IMG/VR virus record: IMGVR_UViG_3300028862_000012
Span: 62,001-126,000 of that record
DNA: 64,000 bases
Source: a virus
Reading direction: 5' to 3' (one strand)
Shown here: positions 1,495-54,476 of the stretch, piece after piece
Numbering within the stretch: the first letter of the stretch is position 1
Layout of the letters: each line of letters begins with the position of its first letter
Notes under the pieces: model-generated
Database searches by the model: none
What the model was told of the DNA's origin: nothing
The model's input: the letters and a program-made list of their open reading frames with translations, nothing else
Position numbers and translations under genes: made by a program

Positions 1495-1507
1495 ATTATA
1501 ATAGTTA
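1495..1507 (-). promoter_or_regulatory. 13-base phage promoter element TAACTATTATAAT
   Basis: Full-consensus copy, overlapping the stop codon of the upstream gene (1505) and 23 bases before the ATG at 1471. The following base is G. Confidence 0.65.
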
Positions 1508-3229
1508 GTTAAATCGTCTACTTCTATCAACACGTAAGAAAGGAGTATTATCAAAACGCTTTCCAATATCCAGACTATCTAAGTTAATTCCCGGTGCGCG
1601 AATTAAAAATTGTAATGAAACATGCTGGTCTAAATCCTGCATTTCTATATAAGGAAAAGTAGCATTTAATAAAAGTTTATTAGTGGCATAAACATCTGTA
1701 TAAATATTTACTTCTTTTAATTTAACATTATCATCTATTTGATAGTCTATCCAAATATGTGTAGGAGTTGAAGAATATATATAGTCATTACGAGAGCTAA
1801 AAGAAGAGTTACAATTAGTTATAGTATAAATCGTTTCAAAATATAAAACTCCTGTACTATAGACTATAGTACTATTTGTTAAATAAGGAGATATAATATG
1901 TCCATTACTATCATCCGATGCAGTATAGGTAGTTCCATCTATATCAAAACTTAATTTTAACGTTCCTTCTTTAATAACAGTATAACCTGTTTCATAGGTT
2001 AAATGATCAGTTATTTCTCCAATAACAGGATTTTTAGAGGTATAATTAAATAAATTTAGAGTAAAATTTCCAGTAGTATATTCAATTGTTCCACTTAAAA
2101 ATAAGTTATCTTTATTATATAAGCTCCCTGTTCCATCATCAATAAAAGTAACTTTACTACCATCTGAAAAAGATAAAGTTCCGCTTACTTTTGACTCTAC
2201 AATATTTTTAGTATTTAACGTAGAGCTATATGTTGTTATTATTCCAATATTTTTAAATATCTTACTCCCAATACGAGATTTAAATAGTCCCAAAATCATT
2301 ATAAACTCTTCATAATATAAAATTTCTTCAATAGTTACTGCATACAAACCTAACTCTGTTTCTGTACCATCTTCATATTCAACTATTCCTGTTATCATCA
2401 AGTCTTCAAATATATTATCATAAAAATCATACGTTGCTATATTCATGCTTAAATCAGGAATAAAATTAGTTGTCCCATTTCTAAAATCTATAGGAAAAGT
2501 TAAATTACAACCATAATGAGGAATATCAGTAACCTTCTTACAATAATTTCCATTATTTTTTAAATAGTCTAAATACTTTTTTTGAAATAAATATTTAACT
2601 CCTCTTACCTCTTCATAATTAATTAAGTTATATTCTAGTGCTAAATGCTTTGTAAGTTTCTCTATACTTTTATCAAGATAGTAAACTTCATCTCCGTCTA
2701 CGCCGTATAAATCAGAATCCAGAGTTGGAGTTTTTTGTAATAGATTTACTGATGTAGTTTTATCAGGTATAAACCAATAAAAAGGAGTAGTAAAATCATA
2801 GTAGTTATCTATTTTTCTACAAATAGCATCTTTATCTAAAAGTCTTAATAATTTAGAACTAGCACTACTAAAATACATCAAATAAACATATCCAGTCATT
2901 TCCAATGATTTAAATATAAAATCGAATGAAGAATAAACAGTTTTATTTATTATTAACCAAGGAATAGCTCTAAAAACTTTTTTAACAAAATCTAAATCAT
3001 TACTAATACTTAAATCTATTGTATATCCTAACATGTCTTGAGCCAAAGCACATATTTCTTCAGATGTTAAAGTATCTATATTAAACATATCTTGCTTTAA
3101 AAATTTTTCTTCATGCTCTACCCATATTTCAGAACTTATAGCTTCAATAAATTGAGTCCAAAAACTATTTTTAATACTTGGATGTAATCGTTTAGTAAGA
3201 TTATTAGTAAGTAATTCTTCTGTCATCAT
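1505..3229 (-). CDS. Baseplate/tail structural protein next to the J-like wedge protein
   Basis: A 574-residue protein directly downstream of the baseplate J-like gene (4-base gap). The N-terminal 120 residues (LTKRLHPSIKNSFWTQFIEA and following helices) resemble the helical start of tail-protein-I/baseplate-wedge proteins that sit beside J in many phages. The rest is beta-rich with repeated short GxLxFSDGS and GTLKLSFDIDG strands, as in domains carrying fibres. Two adjacent ATGs exist (3229 and 3226) behind a CAGGAG ribosome-binding site; the first is used here. The assignment rests mainly on gene order. Confidence 0.45.
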   Translation of the reverse strand: MMTEELLTNNLTKRLHPSIKNSFWTQFIEAISSEIWVEHEEKFLKQDMFNIDTLTSEEICALAQDMLGYTIDLSISNDLDFVKKVFRAIPWLIINKTVYSSFDFIFKSLEMTGYVYLMYFSSASSKLLRLLDKDAICRKIDNYYDFTTPFYWFIPDKTTSVNLLQKTPTLDSDLYGVDGDEVYYLDKSIEKLTKHLALEYNLINYEEVRGVKYLFQKKYLDYLKNNGNYCKKVTDIPHYGCNLTFPIDFRNGTTNFIPDLSMNIATYDFYDNIFEDLMITGIVEYEDGTETELGLYAVTIEEILYYEEFIMILGLFKSRIGSKIFKNIGIITTYSSTLNTKNIVESKVSGTLSFSDGSKVTFIDDGTGSLYNKDNLFLSGTIEYTTGNFTLNLFNYTSKNPVIGEITDHLTYETGYTVIKEGTLKLSFDIDGTTYTASDDSNGHIISPYLTNSTIVYSTGVLYFETIYTITNCNSSFSSRNDYIYSSTPTHIWIDYQIDDNVKLKEVNIYTDVYATNKLLLNATFPYIEMQDLDQHVSLQFLIRAPGINLDSLDIGKRFDNTPFLRVDRSRRFN

Positions 3230-3233
3230 TTAT

Positions 3234-4982
3234 TTAAACTCCTGTATAATACAAACAATTTACATCACTATCAAAATAATTTATTATTTGTGCCCTACTT
3301 GTAAGTATTATATTTTCAGTATCAGCCACATTAAACTCAAAATAAAGACTATACTCACCATAGGGCTTATTTAAACCTGAATTAACTTTAAATTGTCCTG
3401 TTCCTGCTGCTAAATCAACAGCACTACCAGTAGTATCATAGCCATTTAAGCCAGTTATACTTCCATTAGAATTTACTTTTGCAATTTGTTTATATGAAGC
3501 ATCATCTTTATGCTTTATTAAAACTTTACAGACTGAATAATTAATTGGAACCATTGTTACAGTAAAGCTTCCAATATAAGTACTATCAAAAACAAAAGAC
3601 TGTAGTATAAGCACTTGTATATCTGCATATCTAACTCCACTCAAATTATCTATTAATGAATAAACATCAGAGCCATACAGATTTTGTTTAAATTCAAAAT
3701 TATCAATAATATAAGTTTCCTTCAATGTTTCTATAATTAAAGAATTCATATAATTAAGTGTCTTGCTTTTATCACTTATATAAGCAGTTACATAAAACTT
3801 TAAATTTATTAATTTCAAGTCCATATAAGATAAAATATCTGTAGGAGGTTTTTTTTGATAAATATCTTCTACTAACTGTGTTTTTTGAGAGGTAGTTAAA
3901 TCAGTTCCAGAATCATTAGCGGCAGTTATATAAACACAATTTTCTTCACCTGAAATGAATGTCCAAGGATCACGATTATTATCTATGTTTGTTTCATAGC
4001 TTCCCCAAACATTTGCTTTTTTTATATAGCTAAAACTATTTATAATTGTTTTATAGTCCTCAGAAGTTCCAGCGCGTTTACCTGCTTGATAAAATTTTGG
4101 AGATAAATCTCTTAGTTTATCTATATCAATTTCATCAGTTCCCCCTGAAATTTCAGAAGTATTTGTTACATATAGATCTACTAATTCACTACTTACATTA
4201 TAAATATTACTATCTATAGTATCTATTAAATTTGTAGAATATAAATTACCATTTAAACCAAGTGTTTCTACATACTGAATATAAACAATATCACCTGCTA
4301 TTAATTGTTTTCCAAATATTCCATCGCCAAATTTTATTTTTATACCTGTCATGTCAGGTAAAGAATCTATATAAAAACAATAAGCATCACTACTTGCATC
4401 ATAAATTGAGTCAACTGGTTTGGCTTGTATATTATTTACATAAATAAACAGAACAGTATTTTCTATACTATTATTGTTTAAAGGAATAGTTTCAAATTTC
4501 GATCCAGAAGCAGTGTAAGTATAAGATTTATAAATTCCTTGCATAACACTTACATCACAAAATAAAGCAGAAGTTGTATATAAAGTATCTTCTATACATA
4601 TATATTTTGTATCTTTATAACTAAAAGTTGTAAATAAGGGAATTGGAATATTTTTAGTAGGATACTCATAAGGAGTAGCTATATTAAAATCTTTAGAAAT
4701 GGAAACTCTACAAGTTCCTTTAGCTCCTATTTTTCTAGGAATTGCATAGTTATGAAAATAACTTTGAGTTACCAAGCTACTCATGTTTCGTGCTAACTTC
4801 CATTTATTTTCACGAGTTAAATACTCATCATATAACATTTCATATGCAAGCTCTGTAGCAATATCTTCCAATAATAAAACATTAGTTCCATATGAAGTCA
4901 TGTCCATATGATCTGCTTTTGTTTTTAGTGTATTATATAATCTATTAAAAATAGCGGTATAGTTAAAACTTGCTGTGCTCAT
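3234..4982 (-). CDS. Baseplate J-like / T4 gp6-type wedge protein
   Basis: A 582-residue baseplate wedge protein. The family signature is clear around residues 280-320: GGTDEIDIDKLR, then RAGTSEDYKTII, matching the GGxDxE...RAVTxxDY pattern of Baseplate_J/gp6 proteins. The N-terminal region (about 20-90) is helical and contains the MTSYGTNVLLLEDIATELAY segment typical of the family start. In T4-type baseplates gp6 dimers form the inner wedge ring that triggers sheath contraction. It lies 9 bases after the gp25-like gene and 4 bases before the next tail gene, so all three are probably one transcript. Confidence 0.8.
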   Translation of the reverse strand: MSTASFNYTAIFNRLYNTLKTKADHMDMTSYGTNVLLLEDIATELAYEMLYDEYLTRENKWKLARNMSSLVTQSYFHNYAIPRKIGAKGTCRVSISKDFNIATPYEYPTKNIPIPLFTTFSYKDTKYICIEDTLYTTSALFCDVSVMQGIYKSYTYTASGSKFETIPLNNNSIENTVLFIYVNNIQAKPVDSIYDASSDAYCFYIDSLPDMTGIKIKFGDGIFGKQLIAGDIVYIQYVETLGLNGNLYSTNLIDTIDSNIYNVSSELVDLYVTNTSEISGGTDEIDIDKLRDLSPKFYQAGKRAGTSEDYKTIINSFSYIKKANVWGSYETNIDNNRDPWTFISGEENCVYITAANDSGTDLTTSQKTQLVEDIYQKKPPTDILSYMDLKLINLKFYVTAYISDKSKTLNYMNSLIIETLKETYIIDNFEFKQNLYGSDVYSLIDNLSGVRYADIQVLILQSFVFDSTYIGSFTVTMVPINYSVCKVLIKHKDDASYKQIAKVNSNGSITGLNGYDTTGSAVDLAAGTGQFKVNSGLNKPYGEYSLYFEFNVADTENIILTSRAQIINYFDSDVNCLYYTGV

Positions 4983-4991
4983 ACTTTATTC

Positions 4992-5378
4992 CTATGATCC
5001 TAAATTATTTACAGAATCGTCATAATTAAAAATTGTTTTAAATAATGGTACATAACCTATTAATTTAATTTTCCATTTTCTATTAGCATAATCAGGAGTA
5101 ACACTTAAACTTACTGGTTCTATAGTAGGATAAAAATCATTTTTTAATCCATCCTGAATTGCTCTTTTAAAACTTATTGCATTATCATCTGATAGTTGCT
5201 TTCCTAAATATTGTAAGATAGTTCCACCAGAAGTACTTTTAATACGACTAAATTTTGGGCTTACAATCCATTTAGTGAATGATTGCTTTAGAGCTTCAGA
5301 ATCATATATTTTTTTTACTTGCCCTTGTGAATCTTTTTCACCATACATGTCCAAATCAAAAACAACGTGTTCTACCAT
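4992..5378 (-). CDS. gp25-like baseplate wedge protein (GPW/gp25 fold)
   Basis: A 128-residue protein with the layout of the GPW/gp25 family: VKKIYDSEALKQSFTKWI near residues 21-38, KFSRI, a central helix with FKRAIQDGL, then PTIEPVSLSVTPDYANRKW. Gp25 nucleates sheath assembly in contractile systems, and here it sits just before the J/gp6-like gene, the usual order. The ATG directly follows a 13-base promoter element (5379-5391) with no Shine-Dalgarno, so the mRNA may be leaderless. Confidence 0.7.
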   Translation of the reverse strand: MVEHVVFDLDMYGEKDSQGQVKKIYDSEALKQSFTKWIVSPKFSRIKSTSGGTILQYLGKQLSDDNAISFKRAIQDGLKNDFYPTIEPVSLSVTPDYANRKWKIKLIGYVPLFKTIFNYDDSVNNLGS

Positions 5379-5391
5379 AATACAATAGTTA
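5379..5391 (-). promoter_or_regulatory. 13-base phage promoter element TAACTATTGTATT abutting a start codon
   Basis: The element ends exactly at the ATG of the gp25-like gene (5378). If transcription starts on the base after the 13-mer, the mRNA starts with AUG. Confidence 0.55.
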
Positions 5392-5397
5392 TGTTTT

Positions 5398-5754: not shown

Positions 5755-5770
5755 AATATAGACTGCTCCT

Positions 5771-6472: not shown

Positions 6473-6481
6473 TATAACCGC

Positions 6482-11516: not shown

Positions 11517-11529
11517 ACTCTAATAGTTA
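11517..11529 (-). promoter_or_regulatory. 13-base phage promoter element TAACTATTAGAGT
   Basis: Lies 16 bases upstream of the ATG at 11500, in front of the tape-measure pair. The next base is A. Confidence 0.65.
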
Positions 11530-14779: not shown

Positions 14780-14792
14780 ACACCTATAGTTA
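14780..14792 (-). promoter_or_regulatory. 13-base phage promoter element TAACTATAGGTGT abutting a start codon
   Basis: The ATG of the 14339-14779 gene follows immediately. It is half of a divergent promoter pair with 14810-14822. Confidence 0.6.
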
Positions 14793-15566: not shown

Positions 15567-16652
15567 ATGAAAATTTTTACAAAATCTTTTACAGACAACA
15601 AAGCATTGATTAACTACTGCAGAACTAATAATTCTGAAATTTCAGAAGGAATGTATTTCAACTTTACTGACTCAAAAATCAGTATTAAAAATACTATTAC
15701 TAAGTATTTTATTAACTTTCCATTTGAGTTTAAACTTGAGGGTAATGAGGAACTTCCAAAGAACTTTCTTATCAATTCAGAACAGTTTTTAGGAATAATT
15801 TCAGGAATTAGTGAAATTGAATATAAAGATGATTCATTTTTCTTTGAAAAGAATATTTTTAAAATTAGAGTAAATAATACTATTGTATTTCCTTCCAATG
15901 AAATTGAAGATAACTATGAAAATAGTTTTAAAATGACACAGAAGTTTATTAGTTTACTTACTAAAGCAACAACTGTTTTTTATGCAGACAAGCCAGAAGA
16001 TAAATATAAAACTGCTTATTTTGATAAGGGCTACATCTATAGCTTAAATAATTATCGTGGATATATTGTTAAAGCATCTGATGAAGAAATAAATATTAAG
16101 CTTGACTTTCATACTACTTTGATTGACTTAATTAAATGTATTAATGATAAAGATTTTACTATCTTTTATGATTCAAATAAAAGTAGTAGAAAGATAGTTA
16201 CTGAATCAGGGCTGACTATTTATACTCCTGTAAATCGTTGCATAATTCCTGACTTTGGAACAAAGATTTTTGAGTTTGTAAACAATGATCATAAGACTTT
16301 AGTAAATCGAGATAAAGTTTTAAGCACATTAAGTACTCTAAAAAATTTATTTGATTCAAAAGATTTGGAAAAGAAAGTTTCTTTATCAGTTAATGAAAAA
16401 GAAATGATTTTTGAATTAAAGGATACAGTTAATCCTTACATTAAACTGGTAATGGAAAGTGTAGAAAATACTGAGAAATGTACAAAGATTATTGATTATG
16501 AAAATTTAGTAAAAGTAATTAAGCTTATTGATGGAGAAAATATTGAATTAAAACTTTCTGATGAAATTCCCCTACTTATTGTAAAGACTACTTTAGAAAA
16601 TATTTTTGAAGTCTCTGTTTTAAGTATCCCTCGAATTGTGGCAAAAGTATAA
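15567..16652 (+). CDS. Sliding clamp, bacterial beta (DnaN)-like
   Basis: A 361-residue protein, the usual length of bacterial beta clamps and far longer than the T4 gp45 type. Three similar domains can be traced. The linker RCIIPDFGTKIFEF (near 215) followed by VNRDKVLSTLSTLKNLF matches the RYPDY...VxRxxLLxAL region between domains two and three. The C-terminus ends in a strand (FEVSVLSIPR) like the DnaN end. It ties the polymerase to DNA; clamps in T4-like phages also activate late transcription. The AAAGGG ribosome-binding site and consensus early promoter fit a replication gene. Confidence 0.75.
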   Translation: MKIFTKSFTDNKALINYCRTNNSEISEGMYFNFTDSKISIKNTITKYFINFPFEFKLEGNEELPKNFLINSEQFLGIISGISEIEYKDDSFFFEKNIFKIRVNNTIVFPSNEIEDNYENSFKMTQKFISLLTKATTVFYADKPEDKYKTAYFDKGYIYSLNNYRGYIVKASDEEINIKLDFHTTLIDLIKCINDKDFTIFYDSNKSSRKIVTESGLTIYTPVNRCIIPDFGTKIFEFVNNDHKTLVNRDKVLSTLSTLKNLFDSKDLEKKVSLSVNEKEMIFELKDTVNPYIKLVMESVENTEKCTKIIDYENLVKVIKLIDGENIELKLSDEIPLLIVKTTLENIFEVSVLSIPRIVAKV

Positions 16653-16656
16653 AAAA

Positions 16657-16669
16657 TAACTATCATAGT
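16657..16669 (+). promoter_or_regulatory. 13-base phage promoter element TAACTATCATAGT
   Basis: Lies 47 bases before the ATG at 16717. It is followed directly by ATG of a three-codon frame (16670-16681), so the transcript would start with a mini-ORF. Confidence 0.55.
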
Positions 16670-26530: not shown

Positions 26531-26543
26531 TAACTATTATAGT
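26531..26543 (+). promoter_or_regulatory. 13-base phage promoter element TAACTATTATAGT
   Basis: Followed by G and 49 bases before the chosen ATG at 26592. The leader includes a small GTGC-ATA-GCAC hairpin. Confidence 0.65.
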
Positions 26544-27965: not shown

Positions 27966-28020
27966 AATAGTTATTAAAAAAAGCAGAGTCAGCGATGATT
28001 CTGCTTTTTTTATAACTATT
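27966..28020 (+). terminator. Terminator hairpin extended by the promoter element
   Basis: Core stem AAAAAAAGCAGA / TCTGCTTTTTTT (27976-28011), closing the ssDNA-binding gene. The arms extend outward: AATAGTTATT on the left can pair, with one bulge, with ATAACTATT on the right, which is the next promoter element. Confidence 0.85.
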
Positions 28021-28025
28021 ATATA
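28013..28025 (+). promoter_or_regulatory. 13-base phage promoter element TAACTATTATATA
   Basis: Forms the outer right arm of the preceding terminator and lies 26 bases before the ATG at 28052. Confidence 0.65.
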
Positions 28026-29770: not shown

Positions 29771-29783
29771 TAACTATTAGAAT
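29771..29783 (+). promoter_or_regulatory. 13-base phage promoter element TAACTATTAGAAT
   Basis: Directly after a terminator and 26 bases before the ATG at 29810. The next base is A. Confidence 0.6.
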
Positions 29784-30051: not shown

Positions 30052-30064
30052 TAACTATTACTTT
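30052..30064 (+). promoter_or_regulatory. 13-base phage promoter element TAACTATTACTTT
   Basis: Lies 12 bases before the portal ATG, followed by A and by a TAGGAAT ribosome-binding site. Confidence 0.6.
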
Positions 30065-30076: not shown

Positions 30077-31975
30077 ATGACAAAAGAAGAACGTAATCTT
30101 AAAAAATTACAAAAGTATTTTAGAATATATAAAGATAAAGATAAGAATACTGTATCAATGGGTAAGGTTACTTATCCAAAAGATAAAGTAGATAAAGACG
30201 GACATATTAATATTGATGACATAACAATAAAACCTATTGAAATGCCGTCAGATGTTCGTAAAGCTTATAATTATTTTCGTTCAGATTACTTTAGTATTTC
30301 TCATAACAAAAAAGATAGATTTGATAGGTATCTTGATCTTGATTTTATGACAAAAAATGAAGGACTCATGGGTACTGCTTGTCAAATTTATGCTGACGAA
30401 ACAGTTCAGTGCGATGAACAAAATAGAGTTATTGTAATAAATGCTCGAAAAAAAGAGATAGAGAAAAATTTTTATGAATGGTTTAATGATGTAGGTTTTA
30501 CTAAAAATCTTTTACATGACATTGCATGGAATGTTACTTTATATGGTGATAGTTTTTTAATAAACTCAATTGATTTAAATAATGGTGGAGTAACAGAAGT
30601 AGTTCCTATTTCTGTTTATAATGTTTATGATCGTATGGAGTTCAATAGTGTAAAAATAAAAGAGTTTATGAAGAATAGTGGTTATATGTCAAACTTTGCC
30701 TCATTCTTAGGAAAAAATAACTCTTTTAAAGATTTATATAATATGATGACTAAAAGCGGACATGAAGATTATGCAAGTTCTTTTAAAAGTTATTTATTTG
30801 GATACAATATAAATGATGACTATATGTTACCTCCTTGGATGGTAACTCATTTTAGATTATATACTACTGATGATGTTTTTCATCCGTTTGGTATGCCTAT
30901 TTTTATTAAAAGTATAGCTCGATATAAAAGTTTCAAAACTACAGAGCTATTAATGGATATGGCTCGTGTTGCTACATTTCCTAAAGAAATTTATAAGATA
31001 GCAACAGTACCGGGAATGACATTAGTAGAAATATTTAATCGTGTTAATATGGTTCGTGAGCAGTTTTTAAATATAACTAAAGATACTCGCAATCCCGATG
31101 AACTTTCAGTAGGTGAACCTATATTTACTGTTGATGGTTTGTTTGAATATGAGCTTATTCAGACTGATATTGATATTGACAAGATATCTGATTATGAAAA
31201 AAAGCGCGAAGACTTAATTATAAGTACAGGAATTCCAGAAGGTTATCTTATTCTTTCTGATAGAAGCTCCTTTGGTCAATCTGGAAAGTCGTTAATTCAG
31301 CAATCAAAACTCTTTGGTAGACGTGTATATACAATTCAGACTGCAATGCTTGAAGAGATAAGTAATTTATATCGTGTTCATTTACTTATTTCAGGTCAAT
31401 ATGATTTGGAAGCTACTGATTTTGAATTATCTATGAACTTTCCAGTAACAGAAGAAACTGACGAAAAAATAGAAAGTCAAAAGAATTCATTAGAATTAGC
31501 TAGTGATCTTGTTGCTAAAATAACTGAATTAATGGGATTAGATGCTGATGAACACCTTCCATTAGATGTAATAAAAGATATTTATTCTAAGTATTCTTTC
31601 TTAGATGATAATCGCTTAGATGGTTGGATAAAGTCTATAGAAAAATCGAGAGTTGAAAAAGATAAACAAAGTACAGAAAGTAGCGATTCCAATGCAGAGT
31701 TTAATTTTGAAGAAAGAAAGTTAAAAGAAAAAAAGATTAGAGAAAAAATAAAAGAAAGAATGTTATCAGAAGATATGATACGAGAAACATTTTTTAATGT
31801 TAAAAAACAAAACTCTTATAATGAAGGAATTTATTCTGGTAGACATTTTTATACAAGTTGGAGCAGAGGTGATAGAATGTTTGAAGAAAGCTTAACTTTA
31901 TTGAAAAAAGATATGGTTTCAAGACGCTTAAAAGAAAGAAATATACAGAGTGATCAAAAGGAATTAGAGTTTTAA
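30077..31975 (+). CDS. Portal protein (T4 gp20-like)
   Basis: A 632-residue protein. It has the portal layout: an N-terminal helical region, DLDFMTKNEGLMGTACQIYA (near 93-112), WNVTLYGDSFLIN (near 153), the PPWMVTHFRL segment, and FGMPIFIKSIARYKSFKTTE (near 277-296), which marks the wing-to-stem transition, then a charged helical C-terminus. It forms the dodecameric ring through which DNA is packaged. It is followed, after an inserted homing-type gene, by protease, scaffold and capsid genes, the usual order. Confidence 0.75.
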   Translation: MTKEERNLKKLQKYFRIYKDKDKNTVSMGKVTYPKDKVDKDGHINIDDITIKPIEMPSDVRKAYNYFRSDYFSISHNKKDRFDRYLDLDFMTKNEGLMGTACQIYADETVQCDEQNRVIVINARKKEIEKNFYEWFNDVGFTKNLLHDIAWNVTLYGDSFLINSIDLNNGGVTEVVPISVYNVYDRMEFNSVKIKEFMKNSGYMSNFASFLGKNNSFKDLYNMMTKSGHEDYASSFKSYLFGYNINDDYMLPPWMVTHFRLYTTDDVFHPFGMPIFIKSIARYKSFKTTELLMDMARVATFPKEIYKIATVPGMTLVEIFNRVNMVREQFLNITKDTRNPDELSVGEPIFTVDGLFEYELIQTDIDIDKISDYEKKREDLIISTGIPEGYLILSDRSSFGQSGKSLIQQSKLFGRRVYTIQTAMLEEISNLYRVHLLISGQYDLEATDFELSMNFPVTEETDEKIESQKNSLELASDLVAKITELMGLDADEHLPLDVIKDIYSKYSFLDDNRLDGWIKSIEKSRVEKDKQSTESSDSNAEFNFEERKLKEKKIREKIKERMLSEDMIRETFFNVKKQNSYNEGIYSGRHFYTSWSRGDRMFEESLTLLKKDMVSRRLKERNIQSDQKELEF

Positions 31976-34230: not shown

Positions 34231-34243
34231 TAACTATTATATT
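34231..34243 (+). promoter_or_regulatory. 13-base phage promoter element TAACTATTATATT
   Basis: 31 bases before the chosen ATG of the protease-scaffold gene (34275). The next base is A. Confidence 0.65.
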
Positions 34244-34274
34244 AAGTATAACTATGTATATAAAAGGCATATCA

Positions 34275-36629: not shown

Positions 36630-36670
36630 GTTAGTAAAAATGTAAAACAATATTTTATATTTTTACTAAC
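36630..36670 (+). terminator. Perfect 12-base hairpin overlapping the promoter element
   Basis: GTTAGTAAAAAT pairs with ATTTTTACTAAC. The last four bases (TAAC) are the first four of the promoter element at 36667. Confidence 0.7.
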
Positions 36671-36679
36671 TATTATAAT
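36667..36679 (+). promoter_or_regulatory. 13-base phage promoter element TAACTATTATAAT (major capsid)
   Basis: Full-consensus copy followed by G, 139 bases upstream of the major capsid ATG and within the foot of the preceding hairpin. Confidence 0.7.
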
Positions 36680-36818: not shown

Positions 36819-38315
36819 ATGGGTTTTGATAATGAGACTCGCAGACCGTTGCGGGAAATGCGCGGTCGTTCACTTAGAGAAAGTAATAAGCGTTTAAATG
36901 ATTCTGCTATTAGGGGTCAGTATGATGATTATACTCGTGAGCTTGATGAGAAGAATCAAAAGTTAGTAGAGTCTTGGTCACAGGAAGATGGTCTTGAACT
37001 TGATGGTGGTCGTTTACAGGCTATGGGTGAAAAGAAAGCTACTGCACTGGTTAATTTACTTGAAGAGACTAAACGTGGTTTTAAGAACTTACGTGAGTAT
37101 CAGACTAGCTCTTTAGGTGGTTTGTTACCGCAGGAAATTGTTAAGGCAGTTCGTTATGGATATCCTAACTCTGTAATGTTCGATCTTTTCGATGTTTGGC
37201 AGATGAGTTCCGTAAAGGATACCTTCTATAAGTTAACGACTAAGTATGGAAGTACTCAGCGTGGAGCTACGGAAGGTCAGATAATCTACGAGAAGTATAA
37301 CAATGGTGATTATCCATCAGAGTACGAGACTGATACTGTTACTGTTAGTACGGGTACTGCTCAGAGCGGTGATCTTACTTACGAAAATATTCGTGAGTAC
37401 CATGTTATGGTGTATCTCAACGGTGCATTGGTTGCTCGTGACGATGGTGCAGGAAAGCTTGTTTCTACTGATGAAAAGTTTACTTCTGGTACGCTTGTTT
37501 ATGCAACTGGTGTTTATAATTTAACGTTTGCTCAGTCTATTACTGCTGGTACTGATGTTGTTACTATTCGTTATGCTTCTAGTTCAGAACCGTTAGCTTA
37601 TAATCGTCAGGGAACTGCAATACTGGATCTTGAAGCATATGATTTCCGTGCAACGTTCTTTAGCCTTAATGCTATGTGGAATCAGATGACTGAAGAGATT
37701 TTGCAGTCTAAGCTCAAGATGAGCGCTCGTGAGAATTTACTCATGGGTATTGCTGATCTTATTAAAAAGTCATTAGACGAAATGGCTATTTTCTACGGAA
37801 AGGCCGCTTCTAAATGGGCTACTCCTGAAGAGTTTGATACCAACTGGTCTAATGCTGGTGCCGATAGTGATTACGCTAACGCGCAGTCTTTAATTGGTGC
37901 TATCGAAAATGCAAAAGCTAAAACGTATGAGGCTCTTGGTCGTGAAGCCCCGAAGACTAATATTCTTTGTGGTTCTCGTGCTTTCGTGTATGTACAGAAG
38001 CACAAGTTATTTACTCCTGATAACTCTATGCCCCGTATTGGTGTGTATAAGTTTGGAAACATTAATGGTCAGGACTTGTACAAGGCTCCTAACGATATTT
38101 GTGATAAGGACATGATGTACATGTTTGGTAAGGGCGATGACTCCATAAACGTGGACTCCCCGGTTTCGATCGGAATGTGGAAGATGGGTATTGAATCTCA
38201 AGAGATTCAGCATTCTAACTTTGTTAGTGAGAAGGGTATTGGTGTAATGGCTGACTTCCAGATCAATAACAAAAAGTTTGCTACCTCGTTGAAGCTCAAG
38301 AACTTAATCGCTTAG
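36819..38315 (+). CDS. Major capsid protein (HK97/T4 gp23-type)
   Basis: A 498-residue protein following scaffold and preceding a strong terminator. An N-terminal charged helical segment contains LREM (11-14) and SLRES (18-22), candidate prohead protease sites. The middle has FYKLTTKYGSTQRGATEGQ and an inserted beta domain (about 170-255: STGTAQSGDLTYENIR, then TSGTLVYATGVYNLTF). The C-terminal half has the long-helix/A-domain look (LMGIADLIKKSLDEMAIFYG, then TNILCGSRAFVYVQKH). Less AT-rich codons than its neighbours indicate very high expression. AAGAGGAAG ribosome-binding site. Confidence 0.75.
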   Translation: MGFDNETRRPLREMRGRSLRESNKRLNDSAIRGQYDDYTRELDEKNQKLVESWSQEDGLELDGGRLQAMGEKKATALVNLLEETKRGFKNLREYQTSSLGGLLPQEIVKAVRYGYPNSVMFDLFDVWQMSSVKDTFYKLTTKYGSTQRGATEGQIIYEKYNNGDYPSEYETDTVTVSTGTAQSGDLTYENIREYHVMVYLNGALVARDDGAGKLVSTDEKFTSGTLVYATGVYNLTFAQSITAGTDVVTIRYASSSEPLAYNRQGTAILDLEAYDFRATFFSLNAMWNQMTEEILQSKLKMSARENLLMGIADLIKKSLDEMAIFYGKAASKWATPEEFDTNWSNAGADSDYANAQSLIGAIENAKAKTYEALGREAPKTNILCGSRAFVYVQKHKLFTPDNSMPRIGVYKFGNINGQDLYKAPNDICDKDMMYMFGKGDDSINVDSPVSIGMWKMGIESQEIQHSNFVSEKGIGVMADFQINNKKFATSLKLKNLIA

Positions 38316-38420: not shown

Positions 38421-40184
38421 ATGATAGATTACAATCAAGTTGTAAATGTTAGTTTACATTCAATTTTAAATAAAAGAGTTTATTATGAAAAACAAGGATT
38501 TAATGTAGACAACTTAAAACTCAAAGTAAATGAATTAACATGCAGAACTTATACAAATAAAGATTATTCTAATGTATCTATTGAAATGCCTTTATGTAAA
38601 GTATTTCCATCAGCAAGTTCACAAATTAAAGTAAAAGTAGTATGTGATTATTGCCACACTGAATATGAAACTATGTATATGATAGTATTATCTCGTTCTG
38701 GTAAAAATTGTTGTAAAAATTGTATTCACGCTAAGTCTGCTGAAAGCTTAAAGAAAGAATTTGGTGTAACAAATGTGTCTCAATTAGACTCTATAAAGTT
38801 AAAGAAAAAAGAATTAAGCTTACAGAAGTTTGGAACAATAACCCCATTACAAAATAAAGAGATTAAAGAAAAAATAGTTAAAACAAACATAGAAAAATAT
38901 GGTGTTAAATATGCATCTATGCTAAAAGAAAAAGTAGATTATACTAAAGAAGCATGGAAAAATAAAACAGAAGAGGAACTATCTGACATAAGGTATAGAC
39001 GAGACAAAACTTGGTTATTAAATAGAGGATTTTTAGAAGAGACTTTAGCTCAGGCTGAAAAAGATAAAGTTTCCTTTACTGAAATTAAAAGAAACTTTAA
39101 TAGAAAAGTTAGTTATTCTACTTTAAGTAATTTTGCTATATCTCAAAACTTTTCTATACTCACTTCATTTGAAGAGTTTAAATCTTTTATTTATGAAAAA
39201 GGTAAGACAATCAGATTTAAGTGTAATACTTGTGATACTGAATTTTTTCAGTATATGAATTATGGATTTGTATCAGATGATAGTAGAATTGAATGTCCTA
39301 AATGTCCTTCTGCTATTGGAAGTCGCGAAGAAAATGAAGTTCTTGATTATATTAAATCTATTTATTTTAATGAAATTATTCATAGCTATAAATTAATTAA
39401 TAGAAAAGAAATAGATATAGTTATTCCAGAATTCAATTTAGGAATAGAATATAATGGATCATATTGGCATAATGATAAGTTTCGCGGAAAATATTATCAT
39501 ATAGAAAAATACAATTCAGCTAAAGAAGAAAAAATAGACCTTATTTTTATTAATGATTTTGAATGGAAGTATAAGCAGGATATAGTTAAATCAATTATAA
39601 AGAATAGATTAAAGATAGTCGATAAACGACTATATGCTCGTAAGGGAATTATTAGCTTAGTTGATTCATCTACTGCTAAAGAATTTTTCTATGTTAATCA
39701 TATTCAGGGTAGTAAAAGTATAAACTCTAAAATGATTTCTATTGGATTATACATAGATTCTGAACTTGTTTCTTTAGTAAGTTTTAATAAAACAAAGTAT
39801 AGAAAAGATTATGAATATGATTTAGTACGTTATGCAAATAAATTAGGCTATCAAGTTATAGGCGGGTTTAGTAAAATACTTTCGTTTTTTGAAAAAGCTT
39901 ATAAACCATCAAGTATAGTAACCTTTTCTGAAATACGGTTGTTTAAGTCCTCTGTTTATGAAAAAGCAGGGTTTACTTTAGACCATATTACCAGACCAAA
40001 TTACTTTTATACAAAAAATAATATATTTGCTGGTTCTCGTCAAAACTTTCAAAAAAGTAAGTTAAAGAAATTATTTGATGATTATACTGACTCTAAAACA
40101 GAAAGTGAAATGATGGCAGAACATAATTACGATAAAATTTGGGATTGCGGAGTACGAGTTTTTGTAAAAAAGTATCAAAAGTAA
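38421..40184 (+). CDS. Homing endonuclease, Vsr-like (EDxHD) type
   Basis: A 587-residue protein in the gap after the capsid gene. Residues 1-112: a domain shared with the 32013 gene, with zinc ligands CDYC and CKNC. About 115-180: EKYGV-type repeats (three, FGV/FGT/YGV). A second zinc finger (CNTC ... CPKC, about 270-295). Then the nuclease: EVLDYI, EIDIVIPEFNLGIEYNGSYW (about 330-350) and the following H, the pattern of Vsr-related homing nucleases of the I-Bth0305I kind. The C-terminal 200 residues (LYARKGIISLVDSSTAKEFF and on) are the domain often following such nucleases. It has its own promoter and terminator-flanked position, typical of a free-standing homing gene. Confidence 0.7.
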   Translation: MIDYNQVVNVSLHSILNKRVYYEKQGFNVDNLKLKVNELTCRTYTNKDYSNVSIEMPLCKVFPSASSQIKVKVVCDYCHTEYETMYMIVLSRSGKNCCKNCIHAKSAESLKKEFGVTNVSQLDSIKLKKKELSLQKFGTITPLQNKEIKEKIVKTNIEKYGVKYASMLKEKVDYTKEAWKNKTEEELSDIRYRRDKTWLLNRGFLEETLAQAEKDKVSFTEIKRNFNRKVSYSTLSNFAISQNFSILTSFEEFKSFIYEKGKTIRFKCNTCDTEFFQYMNYGFVSDDSRIECPKCPSAIGSREENEVLDYIKSIYFNEIIHSYKLINRKEIDIVIPEFNLGIEYNGSYWHNDKFRGKYYHIEKYNSAKEEKIDLIFINDFEWKYKQDIVKSIIKNRLKIVDKRLYARKGIISLVDSSTAKEFFYVNHIQGSKSINSKMISIGLYIDSELVSLVSFNKTKYRKDYEYDLVRYANKLGYQVIGGFSKILSFFEKAYKPSSIVTFSEIRLFKSSVYEKAGFTLDHITRPNYFYTKNNIFAGSRQNFQKSKLKKLFDDYTDSKTESEMMAEHNYDKIWDCGVRVFVKKYQK

Positions 40185-40194
40185 CTATTATATA
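40182..40194 (+). promoter_or_regulatory. 13-base phage promoter element TAACTATTATATA
   Basis: Overlaps the stop codon of the homing nuclease and precedes the small frameshifted gene at 40207. The next base is A. Confidence 0.65.
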
Positions 40195-40407: not shown

Positions 40408-40420
40408 TAACTATTATAAT
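40408..40420 (+). promoter_or_regulatory. 13-base phage promoter element TAACTATTATAAT
   Basis: Full-consensus copy 34 bases before the ATG at 40455. The next base is A. Confidence 0.7.
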
Positions 40421-42094: not shown

Positions 42095-42844
42095 ATGCCA
42101 ACAATTATTCCTTATGGAGCTCTAAGTTTATATGATGTTATTCAGTTTACCTATAGAAGTGAAGTAGTTCGTAGTAGATTTTATAATATGGATAGAGATG
42201 TAATTCGTACACGAGTAATAATAAAAAAAATAAATAAATTATCAGTAGATCATTTAAATCAGCCAACAGTTAAATATGAAATATTTAGTTCAAGTTATCC
42301 TCAGTATAAACCATATAATTTGCATAAATTAAGGGAAGCTAAAAGAAAAGTTACAGAGGTTCATAAACAAAGAAAATATAAGCATACTTATAGTTTTGTG
42401 TTAGAATTAGAAGAATTAAAAATAAGCAGTTTCTATAGAACACGTACAGGAAGTCAGTTAAAATGGGTAGATCGGCCCCCTCAACGGGATATAAAAACTA
42501 TTTATAAAGATACCCGAGAAAAAATAATAAAACGGCATACTGATAGAAAGACTAAAAAAATAGATAAAGCAGAAGTAAAAAAAGATATTGAAATATTAAA
42601 AAAACACGCAAAGTATTTAGATGTTGGTGATTGGAATTCACAAGTAAAAGGAATTATGGGCGATTTCTATTATAGGGAAGCTCCTTTACTAAGAAAATAT
42701 GGAATGCTATATGGGAAATGTTGGTATACTGATTTACCTACTGGTATAAATTTACCTTTTATGAATAAACATGAATTATCAATTATATTTTATTTATTAA
42801 AAACTAAAAAAATAGAGAATGACAGTAAAGTAACTATTAGATAA
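42095..42844 (+). CDS. Very basic protein, neck/head-closure candidate
   Basis: A 249-residue protein with many Lys, Arg and Tyr, particularly residues 80-120 and 150-195. A T4 neck protein has a similar length, but I see no motif to prove homology. Near 210-235 is a more conserved-looking GMLYGKCWYTDLPTGINLPF. An AGAGGGA ribosome-binding site. The last codons contain the promoter element for the next gene. Confidence 0.4.
   Translation: MPTIIPYGALSLYDVIQFTYRSEVVRSRFYNMDRDVIRTRVIIKKINKLSVDHLNQPTVKYEIFSSSYPQYKPYNLHKLREAKRKVTEVHKQRKYKHTYSFVLELEELKISSFYRTRTGSQLKWVDRPPQRDIKTIYKDTREKIIKRHTDRKTKKIDKAEVKKDIEILKKHAKYLDVGDWNSQVKGIMGDFYYREAPLLRKYGMLYGKCWYTDLPTGINLPFMNKHELSIIFYLLKTKKIENDSKVTIR
42831..42843 (+). 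promoter_or_regulatory. 13-base phage promoter element TAACTATTAGATA
   Basis: Embedded in the last codons of the preceding gene, 13 bases before ATG 42857. The next base is A. Confidence 0.55.
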
Positions 42845-44882: not shown

Positions 44883-44895
44883 TAACTATTAGTAT
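44883..44895 (+). promoter_or_regulatory. 13-base phage promoter element TAACTATTAGTAT
   Basis: 29 bases before ATG 44925; a short CAATAA/TTATTG hairpin precedes it. The next base is A. Confidence 0.65.
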
Positions 44896-46534: not shown

Positions 46535-46576
46535 CTAGTCTGATAACTATTAGTATATGGAAAGTTATCAGACTAG
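46535..46576 (+). promoter_or_regulatory. Perfect 14-base inverted repeat around a start codon
   Basis: CTAGTCTGATAACT (46535-46548) pairs with AGTTATCAGACTAG (46563-46576). The 14-base loop holds ATG 46557. The promoter element at 46544 starts inside the left arm, so only readthrough RNA can form the full hairpin. Confidence 0.75.
46544..46556 (+). promoter_or_regulatory. 13-base phage promoter element TAACTATTAGTAT abutting a start codon
   Basis: The ATG at 46557 follows directly. There is no Shine-Dalgarno, so a leaderless mRNA is implied. Confidence 0.6.
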
Positions 46577-47126
46577 AATAAGCAGACATTTAAGACCATT
46601 AAAAAAACGTTTACATGATAATTATATGAATAGAATAGGGCTTGATCTAGAGTTATTTGCTTTATCTATTGAAAATAATAGTCATGATGATGAAGTAAAA
46701 ATTGATTTAACCAATACAAAAAAGATATTAGGATTTATAAAATATCCCGAAGATGAAATTCCTATTTCAAATAGTTATAACAATAACAATAATTCTATGA
46801 GTTTTCATATGTATGACATATTACCTATAGAGTTTTATTGTAAATGGGAAGATAAAATAAAAATAAGTGATATTATAATTCAAAAAATTATAATGCCTGA
46901 TGACAGTGTTAAAGCAATGATACTGCAAGTAGTTGATTTAATAGCTCGTGCAGATACCGATTTTATGTTTGCAAAATATATAGTAGCTCCTTATACTTTT
47001 AACTTAAAGAATACTTCACACATGGAAATAAAAAATGAAATAGAAAAGTACTTAAAAGAGCCAGTAATAGTAAATAGTACTATAGAGCTTACTGCAAATT
47101 TAACTCCTGAACCTGATGAATATTAA
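46557..47126 (+). CDS. Unknown 189-residue protein, start in a hairpin loop
   Basis: Helical N-terminus (RISRHLRPLKKRLHDNYMNR), an Asn-rich linker near 88-95, then alpha/beta. Not recognised. Perhaps head completion or tail-related by neighbourhood. The start codon lies in the loop of a 14-base-pair hairpin and right after a promoter element, so translation from upstream readthrough RNA should be blocked while leaderless RNA from its own promoter would be free. Confidence 0.45.
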   Translation: MESYQTRISRHLRPLKKRLHDNYMNRIGLDLELFALSIENNSHDDEVKIDLTNTKKILGFIKYPEDEIPISNSYNNNNNSMSFHMYDILPIEFYCKWEDKIKISDIIIQKIIMPDDSVKAMILQVVDLIARADTDFMFAKYIVAPYTFNLKNTSHMEIKNEIEKYLKEPVIVNSTIELTANLTPEPDEY

Positions 47127-47179: not shown

Positions 47180-47192
47180 TAACTATTATAAT
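47180..47192 (+). promoter_or_regulatory. 13-base phage promoter element TAACTATTATAAT (nrd genes)
   Basis: Full-consensus copy, 29 bases before ATG 47222. It is the only copy followed by C. Its use for nucleotide-metabolism genes shows the element is not limited to structural genes. Confidence 0.65.
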
Positions 47193-50126: not shown

Positions 50127-50165
50127 TATTCCTGCTGAGAGTATAACTAAAAACATTTTATATTC

Positions 50166-50198: not shown

Positions 50199-50203
50199 TT
50201 TTC

Positions 50204-50216
50204 TAACTATTATAAT
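50204..50216 (+). promoter_or_regulatory. 13-base phage promoter element TAACTATTATAAT
   Basis: Full-consensus copy straight after the terminator, 14 bases before ATG 50231; the next base is G. A GTGAGGAAAT leader supplies the ribosome-binding site. Confidence 0.7.
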
Positions 50217-50230
50217 GTGAGGAAATAAAA

Positions 50231-51117: not shown

Positions 51118-51144
51118 AGGAATTATTTATTAAAGGACTTTATA

Positions 51145-52014
51145 TTGAAGTATGCAAAAACAAATCTTTCAGATTCAGAAAGAATATCAAATTCTAATTA
51201 TTACAAACAAGATACCAATGTAAGAAACTATCGAAATATTATTTATTACATAGAAATAGAGCTAGAGAAGTATTTAGCAAAGCTTTTAACAAAAAATCAA
51301 TTAGATAGAATTATCTGGTCAAGTTCTGATTTTGCATTGCGTAAGCGTGGAGGTAATGCACAAGAGGATGTAACAAATACTTTGGATCTTCCTTTTGTTA
51401 GCTACAAATTAACAGATGTAAATACAGATACACAGCGTCAATTATTTAACAACTATATGAATGTTAATGGCGTTTACTTATCAGATGCAGAAGTAATGGT
51501 AAAGACTGCACCAATGCATTTAGAGTATGAAGTAGTATTTTGGTGTAATCGAGATGAAGAGCTTGTGTATGCTACTCATAATTTTTTATTTGATATGAGT
51601 AATGAAACTTTAATTCATCCAAGTATTCCTTTAGAAACAGGTAAAAGTATAGTACTTCCTGCCTTTATTTCTTTTTCTGGAAGTTATAATGATGTATATA
51701 GTCAGTCTGATTATATAATTAGCAACAAAATTCGCACATTGTCTATGACTTTCTCTATAGATACTTATATTTTAAAAGAAGTAGGAAATACTTTAAATTC
51801 TGAAGGAATAGGCTCATTTGGTAGCATTAATATTCCATTAGTTAAAACAGTTATATTTGATTTTTTTAATAGTAAAAATATTAATACAGAAGCAATAAAA
51901 AATGGAGATATAAATATATATGATTCAGAAATGGAAATACTTTTGCGAGATTATTTTTCTGATGATGAAGAAATATTTCAAGAATTAAAGCCACCTGTAG
52001 TTGCTCCTACTTAA
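51145..52014 (+). CDS. Tail terminator / sheath-stabiliser candidate (gp15-like), TTG start
   Basis: A 289-residue protein directly before the sheath gene. The start is TTG at 51145, 7 bases after AAAGGA; no ATG is available nearby. The middle (APMHLEYEVVFWCNRDEELV and the following HNFLF...HPSIPL, then KIRTLSMTFSIDTYILK) follows the layout of T4 gp15 (a YELxxxTRxxDExxQIxEQILxxF-like stretch, then a strand ending the domain). Such proteins cap the tail and join it to the head. Homology is suggested, not proven. Confidence 0.45.
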   Translation: MKYAKTNLSDSERISNSNYYKQDTNVRNYRNIIYYIEIELEKYLAKLLTKNQLDRIIWSSSDFALRKRGGNAQEDVTNTLDLPFVSYKLTDVNTDTQRQLFNNYMNVNGVYLSDAEVMVKTAPMHLEYEVVFWCNRDEELVYATHNFLFDMSNETLIHPSIPLETGKSIVLPAFISFSGSYNDVYSQSDYIISNKIRTLSMTFSIDTYILKEVGNTLNSEGIGSFGSINIPLVKTVIFDFFNSKNINTEAIKNGDINIYDSEMEILLRDYFSDDEEIFQELKPPVVAPT

Positions 52015-52033
52015 TAATATCTTATAAAAAAAG

Positions 52034-52046
52034 TAACTATTATAAT
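52034..52046 (+). promoter_or_regulatory. 13-base phage promoter element TAACTATTATAAT (sheath gene)
   Basis: Full-consensus copy 43 bases before the sheath ATG. The next base is A. Confidence 0.7.
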
Positions 52047-52089
52047 ACGAAGATATAAAATTTTTGATTAAGTTATAGGATGGAAAATA

Positions 52090-53907
52090 ATGGATAATTG
52101 GAGAATTCAAACTTTTTTTGAGGATAAATCAACAGTTGTAAAACCGACTACTTCTGCATTGGGTTTTACTGTTATAAAAGCCCCAAAGGGTACAGACTAT
52201 ATGTATTTTGATGTAGGACAAGCAGGATCAATTATTGATTGCTGTGGTTATCCTGCTTACAGTAACGGTGTTCAGGATGCAATAGACTATAATAAAAAAG
52301 CTCCATTATATGTAAATGCACCTTCTACTAATGGAAAATTTGGTGGTGTATTTGTAACAAAGACAGGTACTATCCCTTTTTATTCAGGTTATAGTAGTTG
52401 GGATACTTTTGATTTAAAGCTTATTCCTCAAAGCATGAATGCAGGTACAGGTGATGCTTCTAAAGTATTGTTTAATGTTACTTTAACTAATTTTGCTAAG
52501 TACAATGCAAGAAGTTTAACAATTTCTATAAACGGAACTCCTGATACTTTAGTATTTGATACTTCTGTTGCAGGAATTGAAACTATTACTGGTAGTCTTT
52601 GCACTGCTGTATTAACTAAATCAACGGGTGCTTTAGCAATTACATTTACTACTGCTCCTGCAATACTTGCTGTAGTGACTGTTGATTATACAATAAATAT
52701 TAATGATGATTGTTATTTTGTTTTAAGAAATTATAGTAAGTGTGTAGATGATATTGCTGTAAAAGTTTTAGGAAAGACTAATGGATTATTTAGTATTGCT
52801 GTTTATAAGAAAGATAAAAATAATGATTTTTCTGAAATAACAAACTCTCCTTTTGAAGTTTCCTTAAATCCTAAAGGAACAAATGCTAACGGTAAAAATA
52901 TCTATGTAGAGAATGTTTTCAAAGAAAGTAAATATCTTAAAGCACTTGATACTGAAACTGCATTTAGTACTTTTGCAGATGATACTGCTTTAGTAAATCT
53001 TGCTGGTGGTTCTCGTGGAGATACGGTAACAAATGCGGTAATTGCATCTTCTTATCTAGCTCTTACTGATAAAAATAAATATCCTGTTAAAGTTTTCTTT
53101 GATGGAAATGCAGACGCTACAATTGCTACGGCTTTTGAAACGCTACGCAATGGTATATTTAATCGTTCTCGTTTTATACTGACTACTCCTGATAGTACAG
53201 AAACTGAATTGATTTCAGGTGCGGCAACTTCGCGTTATAATTTAAGTAATCGTGGTATTTATGTTTATTGTTTAACTTGGGGAACACATGTAGATAGTTA
53301 TTATGGCAATGATTTTAATTGTTCAAATGTTGGTTTAATTGCAGGTCGTCATGCAGATAGTATAAATAAAAAACATGGTGGTATTGGCCCTATGTGGTAC
53401 GATGAAAATGAAGTTGGTGGACAACTAGGCTCTGCAATTACTAGCTTAAATCAAAGTGTTACTGAAATTAATTCTAAAGCATTAGATACACTAAGACTTA
53501 ATCCTGTTAAATGGGATATATCTGCTGGAGCGATGATAGTATCAGACAGAACAACCTTAATTACTGATGGTGACTACAGTTATATTGGCCCTTCTGGTTT
53601 AGCTGACTATATAGCTTTTAATATAGAAAAATTAGTATTACCTAACCAGCTTGGAAAGCTGAATGATATGTTCCATCGTAATAGTGTTAAGGCAAACGCA
53701 GAAACAATATTAAAAACTGTTTCTGATTTACTGTATGACTATTATGTAAAGTGTGATGAGGAAAATAATAATAGTGAAATACTTAATGCTAAAAAGTTTG
53801 TATTAACTGTAGGTGTTCAGTATACTCCACAATCTGAAATGATAGATTTTATATTTATCAATAGTTCAATTGGTGTTGATATAAAAGAAGTAGTTAACAA
53901 AGGATAA
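52090..53907 (+). CDS. Tail sheath protein
   Basis: A 605-residue protein. The C-terminal 150 residues show the sheath core: LNPVKWDISAGAMIVSDRTT (near 471), SGLADYIAFNIEKLVLPNQL (near 502), a FHRNSVKANAETI segment and the terminal strand pattern KKFVLTVGVQYTPQSEMIDF. A variable beta insert occupies about 120-210. The N-terminal arm begins with a WRIQTFFEDKST strand. Sheath subunits contract to drive the tube through the envelope. Followed 6 bases later by the tube gene, the universal order. TAGGATGGAAAA ribosome-binding site. Confidence 0.8.
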   Translation: MDNWRIQTFFEDKSTVVKPTTSALGFTVIKAPKGTDYMYFDVGQAGSIIDCCGYPAYSNGVQDAIDYNKKAPLYVNAPSTNGKFGGVFVTKTGTIPFYSGYSSWDTFDLKLIPQSMNAGTGDASKVLFNVTLTNFAKYNARSLTISINGTPDTLVFDTSVAGIETITGSLCTAVLTKSTGALAITFTTAPAILAVVTVDYTININDDCYFVLRNYSKCVDDIAVKVLGKTNGLFSIAVYKKDKNNDFSEITNSPFEVSLNPKGTNANGKNIYVENVFKESKYLKALDTETAFSTFADDTALVNLAGGSRGDTVTNAVIASSYLALTDKNKYPVKVFFDGNADATIATAFETLRNGIFNRSRFILTTPDSTETELISGAATSRYNLSNRGIYVYCLTWGTHVDSYYGNDFNCSNVGLIAGRHADSINKKHGGIGPMWYDENEVGGQLGSAITSLNQSVTEINSKALDTLRLNPVKWDISAGAMIVSDRTTLITDGDYSYIGPSGLADYIAFNIEKLVLPNQLGKLNDMFHRNSVKANAETILKTVSDLLYDYYVKCDEENNNSEILNAKKFVLTVGVQYTPQSEMIDFIFINSSIGVDIKEVVNKG

Positions 53908-53913
53908 TAGAGT

Positions 53914-54429
53914 ATGAGTTTAGAATTAGAGAGTTTGCTTTTAACAGGTGAGGATGCATTAAGTAATCATTTTATGGTTACTATCCCTGCCTTTCTTGGT
54001 GCCAATGAATCAATTTTAAGTTTAAACTTACGAGTACTTACTATATCAAATGTAGGCCGTGAGTTATCTACTTATGAAATAACTAAACGAGGTCGTAAGT
54101 CTACTCGTCCCGGTGGAATTGATGATACTGCAAAGGAATTTACTTTTACTTTTAGACCTGATAAAAAATTACGTACTTACAATAGTTTAATAGCATGGAC
54201 TAATGTAATTAAGCATGAACAATTAGGAACAATGGTAGTCGATCCTTTATATCGCGTTATTATTACTGTAACTCCTGTGGATACTGCAAATATTCCTTTA
54301 GGTGGCCCTACTTATTATGAAGGATGTTGGCCTAGTTCTATAGATGGAATAGAATATGATGAAGAAAACGGTGATCCTTTAAACGTTAGTGTCACTATGC
54401 AATACACTAATCGTATTGCTCCTGTTTAA
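53914..54429 (+). CDS. Tail tube protein (gp19-like)
   Basis: A 171-residue protein just after the sheath. It has the T4 tube pattern: NHFMVTIP near the N-terminus, ISNVGRELSTYEITKRGRKS, FTFTFRPDKKLRTYNSLIAW near 90-110, and a C-terminal GIEYDEENGDPLNVSVTMQY strand pair. The subunits stack as hexameric rings forming the DNA channel. The length is that of gp19-family proteins. Confidence 0.75.
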   Translation: MSLELESLLLTGEDALSNHFMVTIPAFLGANESILSLNLRVLTISNVGRELSTYEITKRGRKSTRPGGIDDTAKEFTFTFRPDKKLRTYNSLIAWTNVIKHEQLGTMVVDPLYRVIITVTPVDTANIPLGGPTYYEGCWPSSIDGIEYDEENGDPLNVSVTMQYTNRIAPV

Positions 54430-54432
54430 GTT

Positions 54433-54471
54433 AATAGTTATTTTTTAAGCCTGTTTTAAAAAGTAACTATT
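54433..54471 (+). terminator. Hairpin after the tube gene that contains the next promoter core
   Basis: AATAGTTATTTTTTAA (54433-54448) pairs with TTAAAAAGTAACTATT (54456-54471), 16 pairs with one T-G. The right arm includes the TAACTATT of the following element. Confidence 0.6.
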
Positions 54472-54476
54472 ATAAT
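54464..54476 (+). promoter_or_regulatory. 13-base phage promoter element TAACTATTATAAT abutting a start codon
   Basis: The ATG at 54477 follows directly; there is no ribosome-binding site. Part of a 16-base-pair hairpin. Confidence 0.65.

Follow-up and report, generated by a model that had tools for sequence, protein, structure and literature searches.

Late promoters of phage T4 are served by the sigma factor gp55, the sliding clamp gp45 and gp33. The late promoter sequence varies among T4-like phages, and in Aeh1 it is CTAAATA, starting at -12 (PMC1524935). Phage-encoded RNA polymerases, too, use short late promoters without a -35 element and with a fixed purine as the start, as in phiKZ (TATG) and AR9 (AACA-N6-TA/G; PMC5312081). 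Leaderless messenger RNAs (mRNAs) are on record as well: most middle and late mRNAs of the Thermus phage phiYS40 are leaderless, according to a review (PMC3594737) that cites Sevostyanova et al. 2007, and in Deinococcus-Thermus the -10 region of cellular genes can be placed against the start codon, which yields a leaderless mRNA (PMC12340547). Here we describe a 13-base element with the core TAACTAT in a stretch of 64,000 bases (the window), bases 62001-126000 of a 223,865-base IMG/VR phage record. The element is very probably the late promoter of a T4-superfamily-like family of contractile-tailed phages, and the spacing of its genes predicts that transcription starts at base 14 and that part of the mRNAs are leaderless.

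The window has a G+C content of 28% and encodes a baseplate wedge, a sheath and two tube-family genes of a contractile tail, together with a terminase and a portal. The sheath is a distant match to that of T4 (about 23% across half of the protein), and a family-A DNA polymerase and a clamp loader (L018:16537-17688) are present in the record. The rest of the record was scanned stretch by stretch, with genes taken from a simple codon-score caller. Site positions are given in window coordinates; the element comprises 13 bases, and base 14 is +1.

The window holds 68 copies of TAACTAT, where shuffled sequence gives 34.3 +/- 5.7, and 21 of the 68 copies fell in sense-upstream regions that make up 3.2% of strand-bases (P = 1.5e-15). 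Genome-wide, 41 of the 80 copies of the 8-mer TAACTATT were sense-upstream of genes, in 4.2% of strand-bases (P = 9e-35); as controls, the antisense strand of the same upstream regions held 8 copies, and the reversed pattern occurred 2 times in sense-upstream regions. The 8-mer also emerged from de novo counts of 7- and 8-mers upstream of 371 called genes (41 seen, 2.2 expected), and the only other upstream signals in the unbiased word count were TTGACA, the host-type -35 word, and Shine-Dalgarno words. A first-pass annotation of the window had proposed a gene-proximal promoter at 22 sites, 18 on the plus and 4 on the minus strand. These sites are present as listed, and the excess over shuffled sequence and the placement upstream of genes confirm that observation. 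The annotation also held that the sites often come right after terminators. Those at 28013, 29771 and 50204 clearly lie behind hairpin-T-run terminators, but a crude scan placed terminators before 10 of 43 sites and 17 of 62 other intergenic stretches, so an enrichment is not supported. The genes behind the element include virion genes (terminase, portal, sheath, tube family and baseplate region) and a transfer RNA (tRNA), which supports the term late promoter; we infer the late timing of these genes.

Across the 43 gene-proximal TAACTATT sites, A stood at -5 in 40, A or T at -3 and T at -1, and +1 was A in 31 and G in 8. Base 14 was a purine at 39 of these 43 sites versus 55 of 113 other TAACTAT copies (P = 9e-7). 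At the 22 window sites it is never T, as first noted, although our recount gives 17 A, 4 G and 1 C rather than 16, 5 and 1. The profile of the 43 sites showed no -35 signal such as TTGACA and held no information further upstream than about -17.

The distance from the first T of the element to the start codon was 13 at 8 of the 43 sites and at least 24 at the others, so that roughly one site in five has its start codon exactly at base 14. Counted from TAACTATT, ATG was found 11 times at offset 13, while other offsets averaged 1.9 (P about 6e-6). When relaxed motifs were counted, the number of genes that begin at base 14 was ten; a Shine-Dalgarno match was absent from all ten but present in 285 of 368 genes of the genome. 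Ten related phages were then pooled, each aligned on its own upstream word and with spacing expressed as implied leader length. Leaders of 0 nucleotides (nt) were implied for 38 genes, 1 nt for 10, 2 nt for 5, 3 nt for 3 and 4 nt for 2; no gene fell at 5-8 nt, one fell at -1 nt and none at -2 to -6 nt, and the remainder had at least 9 nt, which leaves space for a Shine-Dalgarno site. Shine-Dalgarno matches were found in 3 of the 38 leaderless-type genes versus 829 of 1112 others, and nine of the ten phages had start codons at base 14 of their own version of the element. Because start codons cut off so sharply at base 14 over ten phages, transcription start at this base is strongly supported. 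The element would therefore lie at -13 to -6, as T4 late promoters do, and many late mRNAs would be leaderless. This register had first been guessed from the purines at base 14, and the cut-off now supports it strongly.

In the model we propose, the DNA recognised would consist of a single compact block from -13 to -6, which is TAACTATT here, and of the AT-rich bases that follow it up to -1. There is no -35 element, and RNA synthesis would begin at the purine that lies 13 bases beyond the first T. A start codon upstream of base 14 would be useless, one at base 14 would be leaderless, and leaders too short for a Shine-Dalgarno site would be avoided. About a fifth of the promoters would thus carry the start codon at +1 itself and give leaderless late mRNAs, and at the others the leader would measure at least 9 to 11 nt and so accommodate a Shine-Dalgarno site. 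Such a double use, with the start codon either at +1 or behind a long leader, would be open to the phage because +1 is so precisely fixed.

Relatives were reached by searches with the sheath (G002 and G003 at 35% identity, G004 at 32%) and by terminase alignment, which yielded among others G009-G015, the closest at 31-39% identity. Their top or near-top upstream words, Shine-Dalgarno words aside, were TAACTA/AACTAT in G003, GACTAT in G002, CCTATT in G004, G011, G012 and G014, CTAATT in G009, ACTAAT in G013 and GTATAA in G015. The family thus carries five versions of the element, TAACTATT, GACTATT, CCTATT, ACTAATT and GTATAATA, of which the last, from G015, is the only one close to the T4 consensus TATAAATA. 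More distant sheath relatives (L025-L028) lacked the element. Orthologous genes kept their start-codon arrangement while the element differed. The orthologs of the gene at 4992-5378 have ATG at base 14 after TAACTATTGTATT in the present phage (G000), GACTATTATATT in G002 and CCTATTTCTTT in G012 and G014. For the gene at 46557-47126, ACCTATTTCCCT is followed by ATG in G004, and a 1-nt leader is found in G014. The portal start codon stands at base 14 in G004 and G014, and that of the terminase in G004 (GTG) and G012; in G002 and G003, the element before the ortholog of the gene at 54477-55100 implies a leader of 2 nt. As the proteins are highly diverged, the same arrangement behind different elements amounts to strong phylogenetic footprinting.

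As a control, the same measurement on T4 placed TATAAATA 22-36 bases before the nearest starts, with two more at 81 and 142 and never at 13, and found A or G at base 14 in 11 of 14 sites; the method therefore behaves on a known system. The likeness to T4 late promoters lies in the geometry: both consist of a single short, AT-rich block that spans -13 to -6 and lacks a -35 element, both have a purine at base 14, and both stand ahead of virion genes (PMC1524935). The likeness does not extend to the sequence, TAACTATT here against TATAAATA in T4, or to a recognisable gp55, so that the T4 parallel first drawn for the element stands in part. In the T4 region tested, moreover, leader lengths began at about 9 nt and no leader of 0 nt occurred, whereas here about a fifth of the elements abut the start codon. 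The likeness to phiYS40 is in its leaderless late mRNAs, which are predicted here; unlike that phage, which belongs to another group and host, this family has leaderless and Shine-Dalgarno genes behind the same element and keeps the spacing as the element changes. The element shares with phiKZ and AR9 a short form without -35 and a fixed purine start, but its sequence is different, no RNA polymerase subunit genes were matched here, and AR9 leaders measure 26-491 nt (PMC5312081). In Deinococcus-Thermus the arrangement concerns cellular genes and the host -10 element; here it concerns a phage late element. In the open-licence literature searched, we found no description of a late promoter that changes across a phage family with the start codon locked at +1. 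The position and the lack of a -35 were already known from T4, and leaderless late phage mRNAs from phiYS40. The present data add start-site predictions that are exact to the base and draw on genome sequences only; they concern uncultured phages, a family in which one late promoter occurs in five versions, and the divergence of promoter and reader can therefore be traced across relatives. If the prediction is true, leaderless late translation would be a standing, conserved mode in T4-superfamily-like phages.

The element, its genes, its spacing and its conservation are established by sequence analysis, and two other readings of it as a DNA signal deserve weighing. Host sigma-70, possibly assisted by a phage co-activator, could read TAACTAT followed by TATAAT as an extended -10, with RNA beginning about 7 nt further down. 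The commonest copy, TAACTATTATAAT, does contain TATAAT, and the phage carries separate TTGACA...TATAAT promoters. However, the conserved half is TAACTATT, the TATAAT half varies in its last bases, the sites have no -35 element, and the spacing is kept in relatives with CCTATTT, which lack TATAAT. A start 7 nt downstream would also leave the 38 genes with base-14 start codons untranslatable from that transcript, and we consider this reading very unlikely. It is still harder to credit that the element is no promoter and instead serves the translation of genes that lack a Shine-Dalgarno site. The strict start-codon spacing in 38 genes, together with the absence of such sites there, would suit that idea, but where a gene behind the element does have a Shine-Dalgarno site, the element mostly stands 24-60 nt upstream, and in G004 it is nearly everything between a terminator and the terminase start codon. 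A copy, TAACTATTATAAA, also lies 4 nt before the mature tRNA-Gly (L012, 11095-11167, minus), which favours transcription over translation.

Several points weigh against the late-promoter interpretation itself. Both the base-14 start and the leaderless mRNAs are read from sequence spacing, the gene starts come from our own caller, and the 43-site profile was conditioned on TAACTATT, so that conservation at -13 to -6 is built in. A start codon at +1 could partly reflect a preference for AT at +1/+2. Among the ten phages pooled, G013 lacks the leaderless class, and upstream word counts found no element in G010. Leaderless mRNAs and their translation are predicted from spacing for the genes with ATG at +1.

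The annotation had suggested that a dedicated sigma factor or polymerase reads the element, and that one or the other may do so is still our inference. By elimination and by analogy with T4, the default would be host core RNA polymerase with some phage factor, and most likely this factor would be a specificity protein encoded by the phage, changing together with the element from one phage to the next. Whole-record searches gave no match to gp55 (phrog_234) or sigma-70 region 2 (PF04542), T4 gp55 searched by phmmer against all called proteins gave only chance-level hits among the matches listed, and clamp-binding C-terminal motifs gave one poor match. The gene at window positions 15567-16652 is clamp-like by eye only, with no clamp family matched. 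More specifically, a gp55-type, sigma-like factor, possibly with a sliding clamp, might guide host core RNA polymerase, and a zinc-ribbon protein encoded outside the window (genome 53297-54085, L013:13297-14085) might be that factor. This protein is kept in G000, G004, G009, G011, G012 and G014. A RecU-like gene lies just upstream of it in G004, G012 and G014, and in G000 with a transposase between, and a 144-amino-acid (aa) protein follows it in G000, G004, G011, G012 and G014, as part of a 301-aa fusion in G004. In G000 the element stands 28 nt before the gene of the candidate itself, and the helix pattern of the candidate (DDLDEKANDAATMLIEVILK..SFGEYLKRL) resembles sigma region 2 and aligns with the gp55 core by eye and by hhalign. 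The copies in CCTATT phages are closely similar (45-75% identical), and that of the ACTAATT phage G009 is divergent and lacks the zinc ribbon. Telling against the proposal, the hhalign comparison with gp55 gave E 0.04 and a probability of 1% with two sequences and did worse with six, the PHROG sigma match reached E 0.12, and all profile comparisons stayed below significance. AlphaFold models had a predicted local distance difference test score (pLDDT) of 38 from one sequence and 49 from four, with meaningless Foldseek matches; no clamp-binding tail was recognised, and candidate and element co-vary along the phage tree, which simple descent may explain. Searches of viral contigs, GTDB genomes and annotated phages turned up no relatives beyond those reached via terminase contigs. 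We therefore name the protein as a weak candidate, a hypothesis only, and hold the gp55-type proposal as possible but doubtful; the protein would be a candidate that can be tested as a new specificity factor of phages. The joint claim that late promoter and start codon are fused throughout this family, with leaderless beside Shine-Dalgarno mRNAs in Shine-Dalgarno-using hosts, and that the reader is a new zinc-ribbon sigma family, unrelated or barely related to gp55 and diverging in specificity with the element, is rather unlikely as a whole. A PDB profile search of the candidate returned zinc-ribbon similarity only (best archaeal RNA polymerase subunit P, E 0.011) and was not taken as evidence. 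In G009, the relative of the candidate directly follows a 398-aa protein that is clamp-like by eye, with no Pfam match (L071:1871-3067 and 1180-1860).

A phage-encoded RNA polymerase, T7-like or multisubunit as in phiKZ, would suit the short promoter without -35 and the fixed purine start. We consider it improbable. Neither G000 nor G004 gave a match to the multisubunit families PF00562 and PF00623, for which the positive controls covered all 14 genomes, though both records may be incomplete; the single-subunit family PF00940 was not found in G000 or G004, but its control was silent too; and the terminase, portal, DNA polymerase, helicases and other large proteins are assigned or lack a polymerase match. 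A T7-type polymerase is probably not the reader, and the single-subunit alternative first raised gained no support: the copy AACTATAGG (14792, minus), likened to the end of the T7 promoter, is one of the sites with ATG at base 14.

Table 1. Predicted late promoter elements and leaderless-type genes in the window.
Feature	Position	Strand	Remarks
Element TAACTATTATAAT	1495..1507	-	+1 G; 36 nt before gene 473-1471
Leaderless-type gene, 128 aa	4992..5378	-	Adjoins baseplate wedge gene
Element TAACTATTGTATT	5379..5391	-	ATG at +1 (leaderless type)
Element TAACTATTAGAGT	11517..11529	-	+1 A
Leaderless-type gene, 146 aa	14339..14779	-	
Element TAACTATAGGTGT, 'T7-like' AACTATAGG copy	14780..14792	-	ATG at +1 (leaderless type)
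Element TAACTATCATAAA	14810..14822	+	+1 A
Element TAACTATCATAGT	16657..16669	+	+1 A
Element TAACTATTATAGT	26531..26543	+	+1 G
Element TAACTATTATATA	28013..28025	+	+1 A; hairpin-T-run terminator directly before
Element TAACTATTAGAAT	29771..29783	+	+1 A; terminator before
Element TAACTATTACTTT	30052..30064	+	Ahead of portal gene 30077-31975
Element TAACTATTATATT	34231..34243	+	+1 A
Weak copy TAACTATGTATAT	34249..34261	+	No T at -6
Element TAACTATTATAAT	36667..36679	+	+1 G; 152 nt before gene 36819-38315
Element TAACTATTATATA	40182..40194	+	+1 A
Element TAACTATTATAAT	40408..40420	+	+1 A
Element TAACTATTAGATA	42831..42843	+	+1 A
Element TAACTATTAGTAT	44883..44895	+	+1 A
Element TAACTATTAGTAT	46544..46556	+	ATG at +1 (leaderless type)
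Leaderless-type gene, 189 aa	46557..47126	+	
Element TAACTATTATAAT	47180..47192	+	+1 C, sole non-purine among 22
Element TAACTATTATAAT	50204..50216	+	+1 G; terminator before
Element TAACTATTATAAT	52034..52046	+	Ahead of tail sheath gene 52090-53907
Element TAACTATTATAAT	54464..54476	+	ATG at +1 (leaderless type), tail-tube family gene
Leaderless-type tail-tube family gene	54477..55100	+	
Further element TAACTATTTTATA	60186..60198	+	24 nt before gene 60210-60908; beyond the range first annotated

Elsewhere in the genome, AAGGAG-TAACT-ATG matches proved to be Shine-Dalgarno artefacts and were rejected as sites. Ten tRNA-like genes are clustered at genome 28682-34269 (L012:8682-14269), where a further copy of the element follows tRNA-Ser, and a transposase gene on the minus strand (genome 51908-53179, L013:11908-13179) has its own TAACTATTATAAT. 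The genome also carries 71 sigma-70-like TTGACA...TATAAT promoters upstream of genes; they are commoner in the small-gene arrays at 0-20, 120-150 and 210-220 kilobases and are probably early promoters.

The window gene at 47434-50126 matches the NrdD family, the large subunit of anaerobic ribonucleotide reductase, and the 155-aa gene directly before it may encode the NrdD activator. Window genes 57272-58063 and 58382-59191 match adjacent parts of the DNA-helicase family phrog_62 with a gap between them, as in a split or interrupted helicase gene. An adenylosuccinate synthetase encoded on the minus strand at genome 24860-27247 (L012:4860-7247) has an inserted intein with a LAGLIDADG domain; the idea of a 2-aminoadenine genome of the PurZ type was dropped, as the enzyme retains the GDEGKG motif. 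Two neighbouring proteins in a sparsely coding stretch (genome 172430-174063, L017:8430-10063) resemble type IV CRISPR Cas7 and Cas5 by eye.

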